DNA from: an uncultured Rubrobacteraceae bacterium
Lineage (GTDB): Bacteria > Actinomycetota > Rubrobacteria > Rubrobacterales > Rubrobacteraceae
Direction of reading: 5' to 3'
DNA length: 54,724 bases
Assembly (NCBI GenBank): GCA_902806085.1
Contig: CADCVH010000011.1
Coordinates: 1 to 54,724, forward strand
Position numbers and translations under genes: made by a program. The notes below the pieces were generated by a model that made no database searches, was not told the DNA's origin, and worked only from the letters and a program-made list of their open reading frames with translations. Positions 14,958-27,022 of the stretch are shown here, in pieces. Every line of letters starts with the position of its first letter. Within the stretch, counting starts at the first letter, position 1.

Positions 14958-16373
14958 CTATTTAGCCAGAAACCGGAGCAGCCTGCCCGTCGAGATCATG
15001 GCCCCCCCGAGCACCGCCGGTATCCCGCCGCCCGGATGCACCGAAGCCCCGACCCGCCAGAGCCACGGACGCCGCCGGTCGTTGTACCGCGGCCGGTGCA
15101 ACGGCCCGCTCCTCCAGAAGGGACGCGCCTCCCCGTAAAGCGCCCCGCCCGCGCTTCCCCATTCCCCGAAGTACTCCGGGTGCAAGAGGACGTGCTCCCC
15201 AAAGAAAGCCGTCGCCGGCCTCCGCAGTCCGACCGCCCCGGAGATACGCTCGACCTCCCGCTCGACGAAAGGGTCCTCCAGCCCGTACCGCATTCCGTTG
15301 GCGGGGGCGGTCAACAGGAGCGCGAGCGTCCCGCCTTCGTTCGGGTAGACCTCGCCGGCCCGGTAATGGTTGACGAACGCCATGGTCTGCGTGGGTTCCC
15401 TTCCCGCCTCCAGGCTCGCGTGGAGCGCCGCGGGGTCCGAGGGCAACACGACGCTGTGGGCAGGAACGGATTCCGGCAGCTCTTCCCCCAGCGCCGCGTA
15501 CACCGCCACCCCGGAGCAGGAGAGCCGCTTGCTGGTCTCTCTCTTGCCCGAACCGAGCAGCTTCTCCAACCGGCCGGCGTCGAGCCCGCCGACCACGGCG
15601 TCCGCCGGGTACGCCGCCCCGTCCGTGAGGACCTTGCCGGCGGATATAGAGCGCACCGGCTCTCCGGTTCGCACCTCGACCCCGGCCCGCCGGGCGAGCC
15701 GCTCCAGCGCCAGGACGATCTCGTAGACGCCCCCCTCCGGCGCGAAGACCCCGTCGCGGGCCATCACGGCGGGCATGCTCGCGTAGAGGGCGGGGGTTCT
15801 GTCCGGTGATACCCCGGCGTTTAGCGTGTGGATGGCTATGACCTCGCGCAGCCCGTCGGGCAGCCACGGGAGCCCATCCAGGTACGAACGGGTCGTGAGC
15901 CTGGCCCCGTAGGCCCGCAAGAGGCCACCGAGGGCGGGGAGCGTCCGGCGGTCCGTGGGGTCCGCCGTCAGCAGCCGCGTCACCTGCGGCCCGAAGCCCC
16001 CGTGTATCCGGGCGAACCGCTCCCACGCTTCTTTCCAGGGATGCCCCTCCTCGACCGGCAGCGAGACCGCCTCGCCGCGGTAGTGGTAGCGCCCGACCTC
16101 AGGCATCCGCCGCAGCCCCAGCGCCGCGACCTCGGCGGCCTCGCCGGGACCTGCGGGGGCGTCCAGGCGGCGCAGTAGCTCATCCCAGACGCCGGGGAAG
16201 GTGACGAGGGAGGGGCCGGTGTCCACCCTGCGCCCGTCCAGCTCGACGCGCCGGCTCTTGCCGCCGAGCCAGTCGTTCGCCTCCAGGAGCGTCACCGCGT
16301 GGCCTGCGCGGCCGAGCAGGGCCGCCGCCGCCAGCCCCCCGATCCCGCCGCCCACGACCACGACCCGGCTCAC
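14958..16373 (-). CDS. crtD: Carotenoid 3,4-desaturase (CrtD/CrtI family)
   Basis: A 471-residue phytoene-desaturase-family flavoprotein. [24 protein letters not shown] is the FAD-binding dinucleotide fold, followed by [17 protein letters not shown] and [11 protein letters not shown]; the C-terminal [19 protein letters not shown] is the carotenoid-oxidoreductase signature. The GTG start overlaps the stop of the prenyltransferase gene (GTGA), so both are one operon. Next to LyeJ-type elongase and CruF-type hydratase genes, it most likely performs the 3,4-desaturation in bacterioruberin synthesis, as characterised for haloarchaeal CrtD. CrtI (phytoene desaturase) is the alternative on sequence alone. 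Confidence 0.85.
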
Positions 16374-17212
16374 GGGTAGGCCCCCAGAGACAGGGCGCCC
16401 ACGAGCTGCACCCCGGCCACGGTCCCGGCGACGTAAGGGAAAGCGATAGAGAGGGGATAGAGCCCGTGGCCCGTCCGCGGTGTGGGGTTCCTGTGGAGGG
16501 CGAGGAGCAGGTAGCCGGCGATGGCGGCGTTCACGAGGGCCACGGGCACGTTCACGAGGGCGAAGCAAACCGTCGCCAGCGCCCACAGCGAGCCGCTCCA
16601 GAACACGACGCCCGAGGGGCCGAGCCGGACGGCCGTGGTCCGGATGCCCGCCGCGCGGTCCTCATCGACGTCCTGGACGGCGTCGAAGGTGTGCTTGGCC
16701 GCGCTCCACGCCATGAGGCCCACGGCCGCGGGCCAGAGGGGCGCTTCCCCGAGGGCCAGGGGGACGAAGACCAGCGGGAAGGCGTAGGCGGCGTTGCTCA
16801 AGGAGTCGAGGAAGGGGCGGGCCTTGAAGCGGGCCGGCGGGGCGGAGTAGCCGACGAAGATCAGGGCGTAGAGCGCCATCCAGAGGGTGGCCCCGGCGGG
16901 CAACGCCGGGACGAAGAAGAGCAAGAACGGGAGGTTCAGCAGGATGACGCCGCGGGCTATGAGGGAGGCCTCTTCGGGGGCGATACGGGCGCCCTCAAGC
17001 GTGCCCTTGCGGGGGTTTTTGGCGTCCGTCTCCTGGTCGAAGACGTCGTTGACGCCGTAGATCAGGAGGTTGAAAGGCAGGGTGAGCCAGAGCAGTATCG
17101 GAAACGCCCCCCAACTCCACAGGCTACCGGCCAGCCACACCCCGACCGTCGCGGGCCCGATGGTGTTGATCCAGAGCACCGGCCGCGATATGTGGATGAG
17201 GCGCCTGATCAC
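16370..17212 (-). CDS. lyeJ: UbiA-family prenyltransferase, lycopene elongase
   Basis: A 280-residue integral membrane prenyltransferase with about eight helices. The NDVFDQETDAKNPRK motif (55-69) is the first Asp-rich, Mg-diphosphate-binding motif and its wording is typical of lycopene elongases/hydratases; a second motif DAVQDVDEDRAAGIRTTAV follows. It would add C5 units to lycopene ends, producing C45/C50 carotenoids. GTG at 17212 is chosen: a TATATT -10 ends exactly six bases before it, and the N terminus becomes MIRRLIHISRP, matching UbiA proteins; an earlier in-frame GTG (17239) lies upstream of that promoter. Confidence 0.88.
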   Translation of the reverse strand: MIRRLIHISRPVLWINTIGPATVGVWLAGSLWSWGAFPILLWLTLPFNLLIYGVNDVFDQETDAKNPRKGTLEGARIAPEEASLIARGVILLNLPFLLFFVPALPAGATLWMALYALIFVGYSAPPARFKARPFLDSLSNAAYAFPLVFVPLALGEAPLWPAAVGLMAWSAAKHTFDAVQDVDEDRAAGIRTTAVRLGPSGVVFWSGSLWALATVCFALVNVPVALVNAAIAGYLLLALHRNPTPRTGHGLYPLSIAFPYVAGTVAGVQLVGALSLGAYP

Positions 17213-17261
17213 GGCCCAAATATACCAGCGCCACCCCACCGCACCCTTTAATATAGGCGCG
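17212..17261. promoter_or_regulatory. Back-to-back leaderless promoters of lyeJ and cruF
   Basis: TATATT on the minus strand (17224-17219) ends six bases before the lyeJ GTG (17212), and TAATAT on the plus strand (17249-17254) ends six bases before the cruF GTG (17261). The two -10 elements are only 24 bases apart, so both promoters share one -35/operator region and both mRNAs should start on the G of GTG. No Shine-Dalgarno sequence is present for either gene. Confidence 0.7.
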
Positions 17262-18010
17262 TGTTTTCACAAGTCCTCCGCCCCACGCCGCGCCCGCTCC
17301 TCTTCGCCTCGGCCGCCGCCTTCTCCGCCGCCTTCTTCGCGACCCGGTTCCCGGACGTGCCGGGCGCGAGCGTCGGCTCCTACGTCTCCACGGCCCTGAT
17401 CGCCCTCCCGTCCGTCCTCGCCCTCTTCGCCTACCTCGGACCCCGACGGGCCGCCCTCTCCATCCTCGCCGTCTCCGCCTTCGCCTACGCCATCGAGTCC
17501 GTCGGCGTGGCCACCGGGTTCCCCTACGGAACCTTCTCCTACGACGACGCCCTCGGCCCGAGGTTCTTCGGGCTGGTACCGTACCTGCTTCCCGTCACGT
17601 ACGTCCCGCTCGTGATCGGGGCGGTCGCCGCCGCGTGGGCCCCGGGACGCGTGGCCCCGCGCGTCCTCCTCTCCGCCCTCTTGCTGGTCGGGATAGACGC
17701 CGTGCTCGACCCCGGCGCAGCCGCCCTGGGGTTCTGGATCTGGCCGGAAGGCGGCCCCTACTACGGCGTCCCCCTCAGCAACTTCGCCGGTTGGCTGCTC
17801 TCCGGCGCCGTCTCCGCCACCATTCTCCTCTCCACCTTCCACCCCCGAACCCCGCCGCCCCCGGGCGCCCTCGACAGCGTCATCCTGTCGACCGCCTTCT
17901 GGACCGGCGCCGCCCTCTTCTCCGGCCTCACAGCTCCGATGCTGCTGGGCATCGTCCTCTTCGCCTTCTTCCTGTACCGGCGCTCGCGCCTTCGCATGGG
18001 ACTGAAGTAG
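17261..18010 (+). CDS. cruF: Bisanhydrobacterioruberin hydratase (CruF, carotenoid biosynthesis membrane protein)
   Basis: A 249-residue polytopic membrane protein of the CruF/DUF422 family. Recognisable family parts are the acidic pair in FAYAIESVGVATGFPYGTFSY, the LPVTYVPLVI helix, the DAVLDPGAAALGFWIW motif and YYGVPLSNFAGWLL. In haloarchaea CruF hydrates the C50 precursor ends to give bacterioruberin; bacterial CruF members 1',2'-hydrate other acyclic carotenoids. Its divergent placement beside lyeJ and crtD supports the bacterioruberin role. GTG start, apparently leaderless. Together the three genes account for the red C50 pigment expected in Rubrobacter. Confidence 0.9.
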   Translation: MFSQVLRPTPRPLLFASAAAFSAAFFATRFPDVPGASVGSYVSTALIALPSVLALFAYLGPRRAALSILAVSAFAYAIESVGVATGFPYGTFSYDDALGPRFFGLVPYLLPVTYVPLVIGAVAAAWAPGRVAPRVLLSALLLVGIDAVLDPGAAALGFWIWPEGGPYYGVPLSNFAGWLLSGAVSATILLSTFHPRTPPPPGALDSVILSTAFWTGAALFSGLTAPMLLGIVLFAFFLYRRSRLRMGLK

Positions 18011-18731: not shown

Positions 18732-19127
18732 TCAACACTCTCCCGGTTCCGGCTTGCCGGCACCCTCGGTCATCTTGAAGACGTTGTCGCCGCCTCCCGG
18801 TGCCTGCATGCAGTAGGAGGCGCCCGCGGACTGCACGCTCACCTTTTGCTCTCCTTGCCTGAAACCGAAGCCGGCAAGGTCGGATAGGCTGGCGGTGTAC
18901 TCGTCGTTGTCGGCGTAGAAGAGTTGTTGGGCGGTGGCGGCGGTTCGCAGTTGGGCCTGGGCGGCGGTGTCTCTGGCCTTGTCTTGCTGGCCGACGTAGG
19001 TGGGTATGGCGATGGCCGCCAGAATACCTACGATGACCACCACGACCAGCAGCTCGATGAGCGTGAAGCCCCGCTCCTCCCTGATGGCCTCCCGAAAATA
19101 TCTACCTCTTACCGGATGTCCGTCCAC
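18732..19127 (-). CDS. Type IV pilin-like major prepilin
   Basis: A 131-residue prepilin. The class III signal ERGFTLIELLVVVVIVGILAAIAIPTY has the glycine cleaved by prepilin peptidase, the Phe+1 and the Glu+5 needed for assembly. The globular part contains two cysteines near its end (YCMQAPG and PEPGEC), a usual pilin disulfide. GTG at 19127 is favoured because GGGGAGG stands five bases ahead; GTG at 19145 is possible. It is isolated: no pilus assembly genes adjoin, though four minor pilins lie 7 kb away in the opposite direction. Confidence 0.88.
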   Translation of the reverse strand: MDGHPVRGRYFREAIREERGFTLIELLVVVVIVGILAAIAIPTYVGQQDKARDTAAQAQLRTAATAQQLFYADNDEYTASLSDLAGFGFRQGEQKVSVQSAGASYCMQAPGGGDNVFKMTEGAGKPEPGEC

Positions 19128-19196
19128 GCCCGCCTCCCCTGGCACGTTGTCTCCGGTCTGTTGTCGGAGGGGGCGGGGGCGGGCTTTAGCCGTCGG

Positions 19197-19673
19197 CTAC
19201 CCCCCGTACTCCATCGGGGTGTCGAAGTCGGTGAGGATGTCGGCGGGGCGGTCGAGGGCCGCGGCGACGACCTCGCCGAGATAGACCGTGTGGTCGCCCG
19301 CCTCCATCTTGCCGACCACGCGGCATTCGAGGTGGGCGAAGGCCTCCTCGAAGAGCGGGGCGCCGGTCTCCCCGGTCGTGTAGGGGGATCCCCCGACCGA
19401 TCCGCCCTCGGATTCGAGCGGGCGGGTGAACCGTCGGGCCAGGTCTTCCTGCCCCGTGTCGAGGAAGTTGAGCGAAAAGACGCCGCCCTGCTCCATCAGC
19501 TCGTGGGTGTGCTGGTCCTTGCGCACCGCGACCACGACCTGCTGCGGCTCGAACGAGACCTGCGAGACCCAGCAGGTCGTGAACCCGTTAGCCTCCCCGC
19601 CCGCGCCGACCACACCCGTGATGTAGAAACCGTACGGGATGGTCTTCAGGATCTCGCTCCGCGTCTGTTCCAT
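19197..19673 (-). CDS. Flavin reductase-like FMN-binding protein
   Basis: A 158-residue flavin reductase domain: PYGFYITGVVG at the start, then NGFTTCWVSQVSFEPQQVVVAVRKDQHTHELM, the FMN-phosphate binding section, and the SLNFLD strand. Members reduce flavin with NAD(P)H, often to feed a monooxygenase, or are flavoproteins themselves. No monooxygenase is adjacent, so the partner is unknown. ATG start, with a plausible GAGCGAG-type ribosome site. Confidence 0.88.
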   Translation of the reverse strand: MEQTRSEILKTIPYGFYITGVVGAGGEANGFTTCWVSQVSFEPQQVVVAVRKDQHTHELMEQGGVFSLNFLDTGQEDLARRFTRPLESEGGSVGGSPYTTGETGAPLFEEAFAHLECRVVGKMEAGDHTVYLGEVVAAALDRPADILTDFDTPMEYGG

Positions 19674-19789: not shown

Positions 19790-19862
19790 GAAAAAGCCGA
19801 AAGGCGCGACGCGTCGAAAGCGGAGCCCGCAGGGCGCGGCGTGCCTGCTAGAGCCGACCGGA
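19790..19862. repeat. Dispersed stem-loop repeat, copy near 19.8 kb
   Basis: It contains GAAAGCGGAGCCCGCAGGGC and TAGAGCCGACCG, both found again at 25410-25450 in the other order. It sits in the 174-base gap before the UbiB-fold gene end, which otherwise holds no gene. Confidence 0.5.
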
Positions 19863-21425
19863 CCGTACTATCCCAACAAGCAAAAGGAGGCCCAACACCG
19901 CGGCGAAGACGAAGCCGACGAGGCCGAAGACGCTGACGCCGAGCAGTTGCATGCCGCTCGTGACGAAGATCCCGAGCATCGAGGAGCCGATGATGAGGGC
20001 GGCTATGAGGAGGGCGAAGACCAGGCGGTTGGCGAGGATGTCCACGCGGCCTATCAGGTCGTCCAGTCCCGCGTGGCGGAAGCGCACTTCGACCTCGCCG
20101 TCTTTGAGTTCGTCGAGGAGCGCGTGGATCTGTCGCGGGTAGTCCGCGAAGGCGTCAGGCTGGGCGAGCCTCCGGGCCGTCCGGGCGGCAACGTAGGCCG
20201 GGTCCCTGTAACGCGAGACGAGCCCCGCCGCCGCCCCCGCCGCGGCCCGCGTCTCCTTGCCGGAGAGTTCTTCGGCCGTCACTACCGCGTGGGCCATCCC
20301 GGCCACCTCGACGTGCAGCTTGGCGCCGCCGCGGCGGAGGGCCTCCAGGCCGCGGGCCCGGATCTCCGCCAGCGGGTGCTCCTCCCACAACGGCCCGCCC
20401 AGGGAGCCTAGCGTCTCCCGCAACTCGCGGCGCAACGCGCTGTCTTCCCGGGGGACCGATCCGCCGGAGAGCGGCAGGGCGCGCGCCACCCCGTCCACTT
20501 CCCCGCGCCGGACCGCGGCCAGCACCTCGGCCACCCCGCGCAGCCGCTCGGGGTCCAGGGAGAAGACCTCCGTCGGGTCCGAGAGCCATACCTCGCCCGT
20601 CGGGCCGTCTACGGCGAAGCGCCCCGGCGAGGCGTCGGCGAGAAAGATGCCTTCTGAGAGCGCCAGCCTCACCAGCGCCCCGGCCACCTCGCCGTACTGG
20701 CCCTCGTCCGGGATCTTGGGGTCCGACGGCGCCTCGAAGGTGGCGCAGCGGCCCGTGGAGTAGTCCCTGTAGGTTTGCGGCACGCGCAGGGGGAAGCCGC
20801 CCATCTCGCGCAGGCGGCGTGAGATCCTGGCGGCGAAGAACATGTCCCGGCGGTGGTTGACGTGCGCGGCGAACTCCGCCACGGAGAGGGCCGGGTCCAG
20901 GGGGAGTCGGTCGCCGATCCTGCGTCGCGTCACGTCGGCCACCGGGCGCATCGCGAGCAGGTCGCGCCTTATGTTCGGCCGGTCGAGCACCACGAGCGCC
21001 GGCCTCCCTCCCGGCAGCAGCGCCCTGTGGGCCTGGGTCAAGGACCCGGCCCGCACCGGAACCTCTTCGAAGCGGACGAAAAGACGTTCCAGCGTGTTGC
21101 CGAGCTCCCGCTCCAGAAGGGCCCGCACCTCCGCGAAGGGGACCGGGTTTATCCCGACGCTGGCGCGGCCGAGCTCGGCGGCCACGTCCGGGGGGAGGAG
21201 GTCCCCGCGGGCGGAGAGGAAGCGTCCGAACTCGGCGAAGGTCGGGCCGAGCTCTTCCAGGGAGAGGCGGAGGCGCGGGCCGATGCGGCCCGCCTCGGCC
21301 CTGTCGCGGCGGCGGGAGGGCCGGCCCCTGAACACGAAGCCGAAGCCGTAGCGCGCCCCGACCCGCGCGATCCTGGCCGCCCTGCGGGCCGGGTTCTCCG
21401 GCGGACCGCCCGTGACCTTCTCCAT
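19848..21425 (-). CDS. UbiB/ABC1-fold protein lacking catalytic residues (pseudokinase)
   Basis: A 525-residue protein that follows the UbiB/AarF layout throughout but with key residues replaced. The KxGQ region reads GPTFAEFGRFLSARGDLLP, the A-rich loop reads RAGSLTQAH, the VAVKV strand reads ALVVLDRPN (ATP-binding Lys lost), HADPHPGN reads LADASPGR, and the DFG aspartate region reads LSDPTEV. Two C-terminal membrane helices (about 460-520) match the family. UbiB proteins support quinone/isoprenoid lipid handling; this copy probably binds lipid or protein without canonical phosphotransfer. The ATG has a TAAGCT -10 ending six bases ahead and no ribosome site, consistent with a leaderless mRNA. 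Confidence 0.75.
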   Translation of the reverse strand: MEKVTGGPPENPARRAARIARVGARYGFGFVFRGRPSRRRDRAEAGRIGPRLRLSLEELGPTFAEFGRFLSARGDLLPPDVAAELGRASVGINPVPFAEVRALLERELGNTLERLFVRFEEVPVRAGSLTQAHRALLPGGRPALVVLDRPNIRRDLLAMRPVADVTRRRIGDRLPLDPALSVAEFAAHVNHRRDMFFAARISRRLREMGGFPLRVPQTYRDYSTGRCATFEAPSDPKIPDEGQYGEVAGALVRLALSEGIFLADASPGRFAVDGPTGEVWLSDPTEVFSLDPERLRGVAEVLAAVRRGEVDGVARALPLSGGSVPREDSALRRELRETLGSLGGPLWEEHPLAEIRARGLEALRRGGAKLHVEVAGMAHAVVTAEELSGKETRAAAGAAAGLVSRYRDPAYVAARTARRLAQPDAFADYPRQIHALLDELKDGEVEVRFRHAGLDDLIGRVDILANRLVFALLIAALIIGSSMLGIFVTSGMQLLGVSVFGLVGFVFAAVLGLLLLVGIVRSGRL

Positions 21426-21643
21426 CCCGCAAGCTTATCAGCCCGCGGAGCCCGAAGCCGGACGGGGGCGGGTAATATGCCCGGTGGAGGATGGCCGCCC
21501 GCCGGGCCCCACCAGGCCGGGCTCGCAGGCGTGCTCGCGTCAGCGTAAACTCTCCCGGTGCTTGCCCCGCCCGAGGTTGACGTGCAGTGGCGGCGCCGGC
21601 GCTTGAGGGGCGTGTGCAGACGATCGAGGGAGGAACGGTCTAT

Positions 21644-23167
21644 TTGGGCGGGAGGAGTACGCGGCGGGAGTTTCTCGGGACCGCCGCCGCGGGTGTCGCG
21701 TGCATCGCGTTCGCCGGGGTGGCGGGTTGCCAGGCGACGGAGGGCACCCGGGCGACCGCCTCGCCCACGCCCCGGCCCCGGGGGGCGTGGACCTTCCGCT
21801 CGCGGCCCGACCTGCGCCCGCCCGTCGTCCAGGTGATCAAGAGGGAGCGCGGGCTCTCCCCGGGGTACGTCTTTCTCGCCCCGAAGAAGGACCCGGACGA
21901 AGAGGGGCCCGGCCAGGACGGGCCGATGATCCTCGACAACGACGGCTGGCCGGTGTGGTTCCGCCCCGCCCCACCCGGCGAACCGGACGTTATGAGCTTC
22001 CGGGCGCAGGCCTACCGCGGAGAGCCCGTCCTCACCTGGTGGGGGGGCGTCCACGGCGGGTACGGGGACGGGGAGTACGTCATCTTCGACGACTCCTACC
22101 GGGAGGTAAAGCGGTTCCGGGCCGGCAACGGCCGCCCCGGCGACCACCACGAGTTCCTCATCACCACGCGCGACACGGCCCTCATCACGATCTACGATGA
22201 GACCCCCCACGACCTTTCCCCGTACGGCGGCCCCAAAGACGGCCTCGTGATGGACGGCATAGTCCAGGAGATAGACATAGAGACCGGCGAGGTCATCTTC
22301 GAGTGGCGCAGCCTGGACCACGTCGACGTGGGAGAGTCCTACTACGAGCCGTCCGACGACCCCACAGACCGCTTCGACTACTTCCACATAAACTCCGTAG
22401 ACGTGGACGGGGACGGAAACCTGCTCGTCTCCGCCCGCAGGACCTCGGCCGTCTACAAGATCGACCGCAAGAGCGGGGAGGTGATCTGGCGCCTGGGCGG
22501 CGAGAAGAGCGACTTCGCGATGGGTGAAGGCGCCCGGTTCGCCTTCCAGCACGACGCCCGCCGCCAGGCCGACGGCACCGTCACCCTCTTCGACAACTAC
22601 GGCACGAACGACACGACCGGACGATCCCGGGCCATCGTGCTGGAGCTTGACGAGGACGCCATGAAGGCGACCCTGCTGCGCGAGTACCCCGGGGGCGGAG
22701 ATCACATCGCCGACACCCAGGGCAACGCGCAGGTGCTGCCCGACGGCAACGTGTTCGTCGGGTGGGGCAGCGAGCCGTTCTTCTCCGAGTTCGACGGCGA
22801 AGGCAACCTCATCTTCGACGCCAAATTCGATCCCTGGGGGGAGTCCTACCGGGCCTTCCGGCTGCCGTGGAGCGGCCAACCCGACGACACCCCAGCCCTG
22901 GCGGTCGAGGCCGGGCGGGAGGACAAGATCACGCTCTACGCGAGTTGGAACGGGGCCACGGCGGTGGCGTCGTGGCGGGTGCTCGCGGGCCCCGCTCCAG
23001 ACCAGTTGGAGGTTCTCGACACCGTCGCCCGCCGCGGTTTTGAGACCGTCATCCAGATGCGCACCGCGGAGCCCTACGTCGGCGTGCGGGCCGCGGACCG
23101 CTCCGGGCGAGATCTCGGCCCCGCGGTGGCGATCAGTACGAAAAGGCGCCGGGCGGAGGGTTCGTGA
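21644..23167 (+). CDS. Arylsulfotransferase (ASST)-family protein with Tat signal
   Basis: A 507-residue protein. The N terminus has a twin-arginine signal (STRREFLGTAAAGVACIAF), so it is exported folded. The body is a beta-propeller of the ASST type: DHHEFLITTRDTALITIYDE, then HINSVDVDGDGNLLVSARRTSAVYKIDRKSGEVIWRLGG, then FAFQHDARRQADGTVTLFDN, where the histidines correspond to the catalytic region of aryl sulfotransferases. The reaction would transfer sulfate between phenolic donors and acceptors; this specific member is untested. TTG at 21644 follows GAGGGAGG; GTG at 21587 is an alternative. A lipoprotein sulfatase lies 9 kb away, a possible functional link. Confidence 0.8.
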   Translation: MGGRSTRREFLGTAAAGVACIAFAGVAGCQATEGTRATASPTPRPRGAWTFRSRPDLRPPVVQVIKRERGLSPGYVFLAPKKDPDEEGPGQDGPMILDNDGWPVWFRPAPPGEPDVMSFRAQAYRGEPVLTWWGGVHGGYGDGEYVIFDDSYREVKRFRAGNGRPGDHHEFLITTRDTALITIYDETPHDLSPYGGPKDGLVMDGIVQEIDIETGEVIFEWRSLDHVDVGESYYEPSDDPTDRFDYFHINSVDVDGDGNLLVSARRTSAVYKIDRKSGEVIWRLGGEKSDFAMGEGARFAFQHDARRQADGTVTLFDNYGTNDTTGRSRAIVLELDEDAMKATLLREYPGGGDHIADTQGNAQVLPDGNVFVGWGSEPFFSEFDGEGNLIFDAKFDPWGESYRAFRLPWSGQPDDTPALAVEAGREDKITLYASWNGATAVASWRVLAGPAPDQLEVLDTVARRGFETVIQMRTAEPYVGVRAADRSGRDLGPAVAISTKRRRAEGS

Positions 23168-23212: not shown

Positions 23213-25390
23213 GTGGGCAAGCCCTTCAACCGCCTCCGCCTCTTCGAGGCCGCCGTCGCGCTCTCGGGCGGCGCGGCCTTCGTCGTGGTGCTGTTCTTGC
23301 GGGACGTCTTGTCCGCGCTTCCCGGCGCTATGGTGGCGGGCGCCCTGGCGCTTTTCCTGGCTCCCGGGGTGTTGCTGGCGCGCTGGTTTCTCCACGACCA
23401 CTTCTCCGGGGCCGCCCTGGTGCCGGCGGGGTTCGTCCTCAGCGCCGGGGGCTTCGCGCTGCTGGCCATACCCATGCTCATCGTGCAGGCCAGCCTGGAA
23501 ACCTACCTGTGGGTTTCGGGTGCGGTGGTCGCCGCGTCTTTGCTGGCGGCGGCCTTCGGGGCGTTGACGGGTGGGCGGTTTCGAGGGCGTGCAGGCGAGG
23601 TCGACGCGGAGCGCGACTCTACCGAACGCGGCGGGGTCATGTGGGTACCGTTCCTCGCGCTGGTGGGGGGACTGGCTTACGTCGCCAGGATCACGGCCCC
23701 GAGCTCCTACGGGGACATCTGGGTGTACCTGGCCTGGGTCCGGGAGTACCTGGGTGGGGGAGGGCTCGCCTCCGCCGAGCCGTTCTTCGGGGGCGAGGTC
23801 GGCCTCTCGCGGGCCAGGATCAACGGCTGGCTGGTCGAGCAGGCGGCCCTGGCCAGGGTTTCCGGCGTGGACCTCATCGACGTGGTCTTCTCCTACCTGA
23901 ACCCATTCTTGGTGGTCGTGGCCCTGCTGGCCTTCTACGCCCTGGCCCGCGCGCTCTTGAAGAGCGAGAGGGCGGCGCTCTTCTGCGGTTGCCTCTACGC
24001 GCTCTTCTTTCTCGTTCATCTCGGGCAATCCCGTTTCACCTTCGGGGGCGAGTTCGTCCAGCGCCTGCCGGAGGACAAGCTGGCGACAAAGTTCCTGTTC
24101 CTGCCGATGGCGCTGGCCTTCGCGGCGGCCTTCCTCGAGGGGGGGAAGCGGCGGTACTTCTCCCTCTTCGCGTTCGTCTGCTGCGCGGTGGTTGCCGTCC
24201 ACCCCATAGGGTTTGCCACCATCGGGCTCTCGATGGCCGGGTTCGGCATCCTGCATCTGGCGTCCAACCCGCGCAGCCGGACGGCATGGGGGAGGGTCTC
24301 GGCCATGGGCCTCGCGGGGCTACTCGTCGTGGCCGTCCCGGCCGCCCTCGTCCCGCTTCTCACGGGCCAGCCGCTCACCGGCGTGCTCGCGGACTCGGAC
24401 ATCAACTCCGGGGATCCGGACGTTCTGCGTAACATGGTCTTCGTGAGCCCCGAGCGGGCCCGCATCTTCGAGTTCGCCGACGGCTCGTACATGATGCACC
24501 CCTCGCTACTTCTCGACCCGATCCTGGCCGTCGCCTTTCTGGCGGGCATCCCGTTCTTGCTCTGGCGCGTCCAGCGGAGCGTCGCGGCGCAGTTGCTGCT
24601 TGGGACGATGTTGCTCACGACCGTGGCGGTCTACGTGCCCCCGATCGCGACCTTCCTCGGCGACAACGTGGTCCTGCCGGGCCAGATCTGGCGCCTGGCC
24701 TGGCCCATCCCGCTCGCGACCCTGCTGGCCTTCGGCTGGCTCCTGTGGGAGGCGATCCGGTGGGCGGCGGCCCGGTCGGCCGGCGTGCGTCTTCTGGACC
24801 CGCTCGCCCGGGCGTTGCCGACCTTGTTGGTGGTCGTTCTGGCGTTAGTGGCCGTGCCGTGGGTGTCGGATGGGCTCGAGCCTATCCGGAACCACAAAGA
24901 GGATTCCCGGGAGGCCGGCTTTTACCCGGTCGACCCGATATACCCCTGGTTCCGGGACGAGATCACGTCGGCCACCGTCGTGCTCGCCTCGGACCTTCTG
25001 GGCGCCCGCATCCCGGCCTACTCAGCCGACGCGAACGTCGTCAGCCGCAGGGGCGGCCTCGTGCTGAACGCCCTCCCCAGGCTGGAGGAGCGGGTGCCCG
25101 GCCGGATAGAGGTCCCCCAGGGCGCCGTGGACGTGAGGGATTTCTTCGCGGGCACGACGATCAAGACCGGCGTCGAGATCCTACGCCGCCACCAGGTGGA
25201 CTACGTCATGGTCAACACAAACTCCCCCCTCGACGCCTCGCTCGACGGGCTCTCCGGCTTCAGGCCGGCAGAAGAACCTAGCGACAGGTACGACCTGTAC
25301 GAGGTGGACCTCCAGAAGATCGGAACCGTAGCCAGCAACCCGAGCCAGGATAAACCCGCCCCGCAACGCTCCGACCAACCGCTACAATGA
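23213..25390 (+). CDS. Large polytopic membrane protein, putative glycosyltransferase-like
   Basis: A 725-residue protein with roughly 13-15 transmembrane helices over its first 560 residues and a soluble C-terminal part that includes VDYVMVNTNSPLDASLDGL. Loops carry SSYGDIWVYLAWVREYL and VHPIGFATIGLSM, the acidic first-loop pattern of GT-C-type lipid-linked sugar transferases such as PMT/ArnT-like proteins. I cannot name the family. GTG start just downstream of the ASST gene with GAGAGGG ahead, so the two may be co-transcribed. The stop overlaps a TACAAT sequence that could serve as the -10 for the glyoxalase gene. Confidence 0.75.
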   Translation: MGKPFNRLRLFEAAVALSGGAAFVVVLFLRDVLSALPGAMVAGALALFLAPGVLLARWFLHDHFSGAALVPAGFVLSAGGFALLAIPMLIVQASLETYLWVSGAVVAASLLAAAFGALTGGRFRGRAGEVDAERDSTERGGVMWVPFLALVGGLAYVARITAPSSYGDIWVYLAWVREYLGGGGLASAEPFFGGEVGLSRARINGWLVEQAALARVSGVDLIDVVFSYLNPFLVVVALLAFYALARALLKSERAALFCGCLYALFFLVHLGQSRFTFGGEFVQRLPEDKLATKFLFLPMALAFAAAFLEGGKRRYFSLFAFVCCAVVAVHPIGFATIGLSMAGFGILHLASNPRSRTAWGRVSAMGLAGLLVVAVPAALVPLLTGQPLTGVLADSDINSGDPDVLRNMVFVSPERARIFEFADGSYMMHPSLLLDPILAVAFLAGIPFLLWRVQRSVAAQLLLGTMLLTTVAVYVPPIATFLGDNVVLPGQIWRLAWPIPLATLLAFGWLLWEAIRWAAARSAGVRLLDPLARALPTLLVVVLALVAVPWVSDGLEPIRNHKEDSREAGFYPVDPIYPWFRDEITSATVVLASDLLGARIPAYSADANVVSRRGGLVLNALPRLEERVPGRIEVPQGAVDVRDFFAGTTIKTGVEILRRHQVDYVMVNTNSPLDASLDGLSGFRPAEEPSDRYDLYEVDLQKIGTVASNPSQDKPAPQRSDQPLQ

Positions 25391-25480: not shown

Positions 25481-25858
25481 ATGCAATACGTTCACACCTG
25501 CTACAGGGTTCTCGACCTCGACAAGAGCATAGATTTCTACACGAACAAGCTGGGCCTGGAGCTCGCCCGCAAGACCCCCATCGGCGACGACGCGACCAAC
25601 GCCTTCTTCGCCGTCCCCGGCGATCCCGAGCCCCGGTTGGAGCTTACCCTCAACCACGACCAGACCGAGCCGTACGAGATCGGCACCGGCTACAGCCACG
25701 TCGCCTTCGCCGTCGAGGATTTGGATGTCCTCGCCGAGAAGCTCGAAGCGGCCGGCGGGGTGGAGTTCGAGAGCAAGCCCCACGCCATGGGCAGCGGCAC
25801 CCGCATATTCTTCGTCCGCGACCCCGACGGCTACCGCATAGAGTTCATAGAACGCTAG
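25481..25858 (+). CDS. gloA: Lactoylglutathione lyase / glyoxalase I family
   Basis: A 125-residue single-domain vicinal-oxygen-chelate protein. It has the glyoxalase I pattern: HTCYRVLDLDKSIDFYTNKLGL at the start with the metal-binding His, LELTLNHD with the Glu, HVAFAVED with the second His and YRIEFIER with the last Glu. It isomerises the hemithioacetal of methylglyoxal and a thiol cofactor; actinobacteria usually use mycothiol or other thiols rather than glutathione, so the thiol partner is open. ATG with AAAGGAGCGAGCC. Confidence 0.92.
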   Translation: MQYVHTCYRVLDLDKSIDFYTNKLGLELARKTPIGDDATNAFFAVPGDPEPRLELTLNHDQTEPYEIGTGYSHVAFAVEDLDVLAEKLEAAGGVEFESKPHAMGSGTRIFFVRDPDGYRIEFIER

Positions 25859-25977: not shown

Positions 25978-26601
25978 GTGCGCGGGACGATCTCGATCAA
26001 CGCCTGGAGGGACGAGCGGGGCTACACGCTGCCCGAGGTCCTGACGGCCGTCGCGATCGCGGGCATCCTCGCGGCCATCGCCGTAGTGATCTTCCTGGCC
26101 CTCCTGGAGCGCTGGCGGGTCGAGGCCGCCGCCGACCAGCTCGCCGCGGACATGCGCCTCGCCCACTCGGGCGCCACCCAAGGGCTTACGGACTGGCGCA
26201 TGGTGATGATGCCCGACGGCGCGCCGCTGGCTGGATGTTCCGCCGCGGATTACTGCCTGCTCAAGCTGAAGACCGCCTACGCCACCGACGACGCCTCTCC
26301 CGCCCTCGCACCCGGTACTCCCCCGGCGCCCAAAGAGTTGCCCCCCGGCACCAAGATAAAGGAGGTCACCTTCGACCCGGACTGCTCCGGCGGAGACGCC
26401 GACGCCGTCGTGGCGCCCAGCAGTTGCGGGCCCGAGGCCACGCGGACCCTGGAGTTCAATTCCAACGGGACGGTGCGGACGCTGCGTCCGGGGCAGAGCG
26501 GGACGGTGAGGGTAAGCTCCGAAGACGGCAGCCCCTCCTGCGGCGTGGTCTTCCAGGCCGCCACGGCGAGGATCAGGATCGGTGAGATCGTCTACGGGTA
26601 G
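25978..26601 (+). CDS. Minor pseudopilin (GspH/FimT-like), first of four
   Basis: A 207-residue prepilin with RGYTLPEVLTAVAIAGILAAIAVVIFLALL: cleavage after Gly, aromatic +1 and Glu+5. It then has a globular domain with several cysteines (GCSAADYC, DPDCSGG, SSCGPE, SPSCGV), probably disulfide-bonded outside the cell. A GTG start is used at 25978; GTG and ATC alternatives nearby are unlikely to matter because the leader is removed. It overlaps the next gene by 20 bases. In type IV pili and type II secretion, such proteins prime pilus assembly at the tip. Confidence 0.85.
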   Translation: MRGTISINAWRDERGYTLPEVLTAVAIAGILAAIAVVIFLALLERWRVEAAADQLAADMRLAHSGATQGLTDWRMVMMPDGAPLAGCSAADYCLLKLKTAYATDDASPALAPGTPPAPKELPPGTKIKEVTFDPDCSGGDADAVVAPSSCGPEATRTLEFNSNGTVRTLRPGQSGTVRVSSEDGSPSCGVVFQAATARIRIGEIVYG

Positions 26602-27022
26602 ATGGGCGGACGAGACCGGCTCCTCCCTCGTGGAGGTGACCGTGGCGATGGTCGTCCTCGCCCTCGCCGTCGTCCCGATGGTCGGGATGCTCGAGGCCGG
26701 CCACCGGGCGGCGACCGCCTCCGGCGATTACGACGCGGCCCGCGCCCTCGCGAGCGCGAAGCTGGAAGAGGCCCGGGCGCTCCCCTACGCCAGGCCGGGC
26801 GGCGCCGCGGACAGCGCCGTCGAGGGGTACGCCCCGCCGGGGCCGCCGGCCGTCACGGAGAACGGCTTCACCCTCTCCGTGCGGACGGCGTTCGTGGACG
26901 AGGAATTCTCCGGCCCTGCGGGCTCGCCTCCCACGGGCCAGATGCGGATAGAGGCGCTGGTGGAGTGGGACGGCGACCGTTCCTACTCCACCACGGGGTT
27001 CGTCTCCGGGAGGCCGCCGTGA
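26582..27022 (+). CDS. Minor pseudopilin (PilV-like)
   Basis: A 146-residue prepilin: ETGSSLVEVTVAMVVLALAVVPMVGML with cleavage after Gly, Ser at +1 and Glu+5 (SSLVE), then the stalk helix continuing with AARALASAKLEEARALPY, as in PilV/GspI proteins. GTG start inside the previous gene; the stop overlaps the GTG of the next (GTGA). It should enter a four-subunit tip complex with its neighbours. Confidence 0.85.
   Translation: MRSSTGRWADETGSSLVEVTVAMVVLALAVVPMVGMLEAGHRAATASGDYDAARALASAKLEEARALPYARPGGAADSAVEGYAPPGPPAVTENGFTLSVRTAFVDEEFSGPAGSPPTGQMRIEALVEWDGDRSYSTTGFVSGRPP

Follow-up and report, generated by a model that had tools for sequence, protein, structure and literature searches.

The use that UbiB/COQ8 proteins make of ATP, and the way in which they act on quinones, have long been open questions. 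The UbiB proteins tested to date depend on their catalytic residues, and this requirement holds in vivo for yeast Cqd1 and Cqd2 (PMC8346625) as well as for plant ABC1K1 (D400N; PMC11613423). A gene in a 54,724-nt stretch of DNA from an uncultured Rubrobacteraceae bacterium (contig CADCVH010000011.1; the whole stretch is hereafter called the window) raises the question of what a UbiB-type protein may do once most of these residues have been replaced. An initial annotation had described its product as a UbiB-fold protein stripped of its catalytic residues, possibly a pseudokinase that binds isoprenoid lipids. We found no description of a UbiB/ABC1K pseudokinase clade in the open-access literature, subscription papers being outside the scope of the search, and neither UbiB nor ABC1 is mentioned in a 2025 review devoted to the Ser/Thr pseudokinase families of bacteria (PMC12599244).

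The 525-residue open reading frame that had been placed at 19848-21425 is real at those coordinates, on the minus strand and with an ATG start (Table 1). Its product was recognized by the Pfam profile ABC1 (PF03109) at E 8.6e-14 (51.7 bits, the curated threshold being 22.9), and by the TIGR01982 UbiB profile with 119.8 bits (E 1.1e-34), far under the equivalog cut-off of 487.6, which an intact Rubrobacteraceae paralogue, at 382, likewise does not reach. A likeness of the C-terminus to PF11026 (DUF2721) stayed below the Pfam cut-off, and in a sequence search of solved structures no credible relatives came up besides COQ8A/B and the ABC1 proteins of mycobacteria. Upstream of the gene, a −10-like hexamer lies so close to the start codon that it backs the assigned start; the form TAwGCT occurs at −12/−13 of the start codon in 17 of the 24 full-length orthologues and a near variant is found there in 5 more. 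This conserved element suggests, as far as sequence can tell, that the mRNA is leaderless.

Table 1. Features of the pseudokinase locus, with positions in the window and residues of the 525-aa product.
Feature	Position	Strand	Residues	Remarks
Bacterioruberin-type carotenoid genes	14958..18010	mixed		CrtI/CrtD-like desaturase (-), UbiA-family prenyltransferase (-), CruF-like bisanhydrobacterioruberin hydratase (+)
Flavin reductase-like gene	19197..19673	minus		same strand as the pseudokinase gene and downstream of it; close by in roughly half of the neighbourhoods
UbiB-derived pseudokinase gene	19848..21425	minus	525 aa	ATG start, C-terminal membrane anchor; ORF check, profiles, model
C-terminal membrane helices	19866..20036	minus	~464-520	paralogue identity, model, hydropathy
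Juxtamembrane segment	20016..20165	minus	421-470	56% identity to intact paralogue
DFG equivalent	20568..20579	minus	283-286, D-P-T-E	D, P and T each 24/24; E286 at least 95%
HxDxHPGN equivalent	20619..20642	minus	262-269, L-A-D-A-S-P-G-R	alignment
ExD and alphaC segment	20832..20852	minus	192-198	E192R 24/24, D194 kept 24/24
beta3 Lys position	20988..20990	minus	146	Val 24/24; alignment
A-rich-loop equivalent	21033..21053	minus	125-131, R-A-G-S-L-T-Q	Arg125 24/24, Gly127 23/24
KxGQ equivalent	21222..21233	minus	65-68, E-F-G-R	Lys replaced by Glu 24/24; Gln absent 24/24 (Arg 21/24)
-10-like hexamer TAAGCT	21432..21437	minus		-12 from pseudokinase start codon
Arylsulfotransferase-like (ASST) gene	21587..23167	plus		between pseudokinase and glyoxalase-type gene
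Large membrane protein gene, DUF6077/DUF6541	23213..25390	plus		between pseudokinase and glyoxalase-type gene
Glyoxalase I-like (VOC) gene	25481..25858	plus		divergent neighbour of the pseudokinase; gene identity, neighbourhoods

The fold was examined with an AlphaFold model computed from a 19-row alignment that included distant ABC1 proteins from viral contigs, an earlier model built on nine close orthologue rows only having been poor (pLDDT 44). The model reached a mean pLDDT of 80.9 and a pTM of 0.73, and the greater part of residues 50-340 exceeded 90 in pLDDT. Its best structural match was COQ8A (Z 19.8 over 343 residues, rmsd 4.7), followed by the mycobacterial ABC1 proteins MSMEG_1954 (Z 16.4) and Rv3197 (MABP-1; Z 15.3), while other kinases scored at most 11.6. 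These two share the fold of the pseudokinase and are nucleotide-binding, having been solved with ADP and in the case of Rv3197 also with AMPPNP, but they are no close match to it in sequence. The model has the atypical kinase fold of the UbiB type, together with the helical KxGQ-type extension at the N-terminus that is known from COQ8A/ADCK3 and bacterial UbiB; the ABC1/UbiB outline previously proposed is thereby upheld, and no different fold emerged.

Model confidence is lower for the second of the two proposed C-terminal membrane helices and for the juxtamembrane linker, but hydropathy speaks for both helices, placing membrane segments at about 457-492 and 483-525. The same two-helix module ends the intact Rubrobacteraceae UbiB, and the juxtamembrane and membrane sequence is common to both proteins. 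Mean identity between them is only 23% in the catalytic C-lobe (residues 226-320) and 24% in the helical C-lobe, but it rises to 56% over the juxtamembrane segment and is 53% over the membrane helices (464-525). A membrane module shared with UbiB and conserved next to a rebuilt active site is, at the level of sequence, the main clue to a mechanism.

Motif occupancy was counted over the 24 full-length orthologues, in an alignment that also held intact paralogues and further ABC1 proteins. COQ8A numbering was carried over through this motif alignment, with which a profile alignment to solved COQ8 chains agrees near the beta3 strand, and residue roles were taken from the COQ8A study (PMC4718504). 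Unlike COQ8A and UbiB, the pseudokinase has replacements in the KxGQ motif, the A-rich loop, the beta3 Lys, the ExD Glu, the alphaC Glu, the Asn and the FG of DFG. The reported change of the ATP-binding Lys and of KxGQ was confirmed in every orthologue (Val at 146, Glu at 65, both 24/24). The ExD motif has likewise exchanged its Glu for Arg throughout, though its Asp is kept, and the alphaC Glu, E198, is lost in all 24 sequences (Ala in 20, Ser in 3, Thr in 1). Two further motifs had been called changed and are so in part. Arg-x-Gly occupies positions one and three of the AAAS loop, but the Gly, which falls on the COQ8A A339 position, is nearly invariant, so this position is not simply degenerate; Gln131 is kept in 24/24. 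In the HxDxHPGN equivalent both His residues are lost and the catalytic-loop Asn269 has become Arg in 24/24, but the catalytic Asp264 is kept in 22/24. The initial annotation had also omitted this Asp and the DFG Asp283 (kept in 24/24), as well as the lost ExD Glu, the lost alphaC Glu and the replaced FG of DFG (Pro-Thr in 24/24).

At positions 65, 146, 192, 198, 264, 269, 283 and 285, all 29 of the 29 ABC1 sequences from outside the clade are intact. Orthologues with intact kinase motifs were sought, and none occurs among the 24 aligned, over which the motif losses are fixed. The protein thus combines a kinase fold with the absence of canonical catalytic residues, preserved as such, and we hold with high confidence that it is a conserved pseudokinase, as had been claimed. 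We class it among the pseudokinases, as a derivative of UbiB, rather than among the UbiB kinases: fold and descent are those of UbiB, and the motifs that define the family are altered. Bacterial Ser/Thr pseudokinase families such as ActPs1-3, GLW, DLHK, CP1 and DYD also keep conserved folds without catalytic motifs, several of them with membrane segments (PMC12599244), but they belong to the Ser/Thr kinase branch, whereas the window protein probably does not descend from it: ABC1 is the only Pfam profile to pass, and UbiB members rank first structurally.

The family distribution was then analysed. The pseudokinase is present in 29 of 35 other Rubrobacteraceae genomes, a few contig-edge fragments and one frameshifted copy (G030) included, and absent from the remaining six (G001, G013, G023, G028, G033 and G035). 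In G023, listed as 100% complete, the pseudokinase query matched nothing, not even the intact paralogue that is usual in the family. A profile search of 296 genomes of the phylum yielded no clade member beyond Rubrobacteraceae; scores were 842-943 bits for intact clade orthologues and dropped to 283-337 bits for the intact paralogue with its relatives. Four relatives from outside the family were aligned and have intact motifs. The search for a second, active UbiB was successful, since the window genome also holds two ABC1/UbiB paralogues with intact motifs that are predicted to be active. The Rubrobacteraceae UbiB paralogue (C55, L062 in the window genome) is the closest relative found, with 35-37% identity over nearly the full length; it carries all UbiB motifs, and no −10-like element was seen at its start codon. 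At another locus (L065, G006:C1:3808000-3823000), two more intact ABC1 genes lie a few kb apart in opposite orientation and group away from the usual paralogue. The pseudokinase clade has a single origin in the tree (100/100). Its sister relationship to the Rubrobacteraceae paralogue, a candidate for the parent gene, is weak (77/45); the clade probably goes back to a duplication close to the family's base.

Since the altered form is kept family-wide beside an intact UbiB, it probably works without ATP chemistry, and several other explanations have to be weighed against this. Gradual loss of a pseudogene, for which the frame-broken copy in G030 might be cited, has next to no probability. Of eight orthologue pairs, seven gave a pairwise Nei-Gojobori dN/dS of 0.14-0.22 and one, whose members are nearly identical, gave 0.05; two pairs of the intact paralogue gave 0.09 and 0.10. 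These values indicate purifying selection, somewhat weaker than on the paralogue. All 24 aligned orthologues are frame-intact, so the earlier view that the gene is not decaying stands, and a decaying pseudogene was rejected on the low dN/dS (≤0.22) together with the fixed replacement residues. In G030 the pseudokinase (L053, G030:C1:1031500-1051400) is split over several frames; the adjacent UbiA-type gene is likewise split between frames, pointing to sequencing indels, and an assembly error is likely for the broken copy. A conformational switch driven by nonstandard nucleotide binding, without catalysis, is unlikely. The kept aspartates and the Gly at the A339 position may leave room for unusual nucleotide binding: in COQ8A, A339G moves the preference from ADP to ATP and enables autophosphorylation (PMC4718504), so that residual binding is compatible with the sequence, and some bacterial pseudokinases that retain HRD and/or DFG have been discussed as alternative ATP binders (PMC12599244). 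Such a switch would nevertheless have to operate without the beta3 Lys, the alphaC Glu, KxGQ, the ExD Glu and the metal-binding Asn, all lost in 24/24, and with Arg at the Asn position. The loss of the Asn and the beta3 Lys also makes it very unlikely that the same pocket has taken up another enzymatic activity in the fashion of SelO or SidJ. These two proteins retain residues for nucleotide binding. The fixed new charged or polar residues at the old active site of the pseudokinase (E65, R125, R192, R193, R269, T285 and E286) and the aspartates kept in its pocket would suit such an activity.

The gene neighbourhood offers two further explanations. Bacterioruberin-type carotenoid genes lie 0.6-4.8 kb from the pseudokinase in 13 of the 23 family genomes examined, which fits the suggested carotenoid role and, in a more specific form, a chaperone or scaffold for bacterioruberin synthesis. 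The two loci are, however, on different contigs in G011, G017 and G019; two genomes that retain the pseudokinase, G009 (99% complete) and G020 (92%), yielded no CruF; and a shared neighbourhood may reflect chromosomal inertia; we regard this carotenoid-specific role as quite unlikely. A second CruF-like gene, 82% identical to the window copy, was observed elsewhere in the window genome (G000:C99:17058-17795) and may stem from a related strain, given the 4.55% contamination of this genome. No neighbour is more constant than the divergent glyoxalase I-like gene, which is on the same contig in 18 of 23 genomes and, in nearly all genomes outside the window's own subgroup, within about 250 nt of the pseudokinase. 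A detoxification or stress unit sharing a promoter region could be envisaged from this arrangement; it is highly improbable, as divergent orientation implies co-regulation at most and as, in the window genome no less than in L048 and L039, the ASST-like and DUF6077/DUF6541 genes stand between the two. On either side of the locus (18732-19145 and 25978-27022) are type IV pilin-like genes that carry the N-terminal methylation motif, and similar genes recur in relatives.

We instead favour, tentatively, a membrane-anchored noncatalytic partner or lipid binder as the mechanism. On this view a single event at the base of Rubrobacteraceae, or close to it, gave rise to a UbiB/ABC1 paralogue that was turned into a pseudokinase; the protein would no longer hydrolyse ATP and would be seated in the membrane through the same C-terminal module as UbiB. 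It would act through its shape, in one of two ways: locked, as a partner to the intact UbiB paralogue, or by binding the same membrane lipid (menaquinone or another isoprenoid) without need of a nucleotide. The conserved membrane module and the coexistence of both genes in one genome suggest such a pairing or shared lipid. The former active site may be held together without Mg-ATP. In COQ8A the active site takes in both KxGQ and ExD (PMC4718504). The reciprocal exchange of charge in K65E/E192R may thus preserve a contact with reversed polarity, and together with Arg269 beside the kept Asp264 and Asp283 it suggests a putative salt-bridge network. Taken as one statement, the description of the protein as a UbiB-derived, membrane-anchored, noncatalytic partner or lipid-handling regulator stands, in our judgement, evenly balanced between right and wrong.

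A conserved UbiB lineage in which the catalytic residues are mostly lost and the membrane module is retained is a natural experiment on the UbiB family. The remaining function of the pseudokinase must be the part of UbiB function that is independent of ATP chemistry. It is conceivable, though doubtful enough to be put cautiously, that Rubrobacteraceae possess a natural separation of function, that is, a UbiB lineage without nucleotide chemistry which would act only via its membrane module and locked kinase fold and would bind and regulate the intact UbiB of its own cell, or the lipid of that UbiB.
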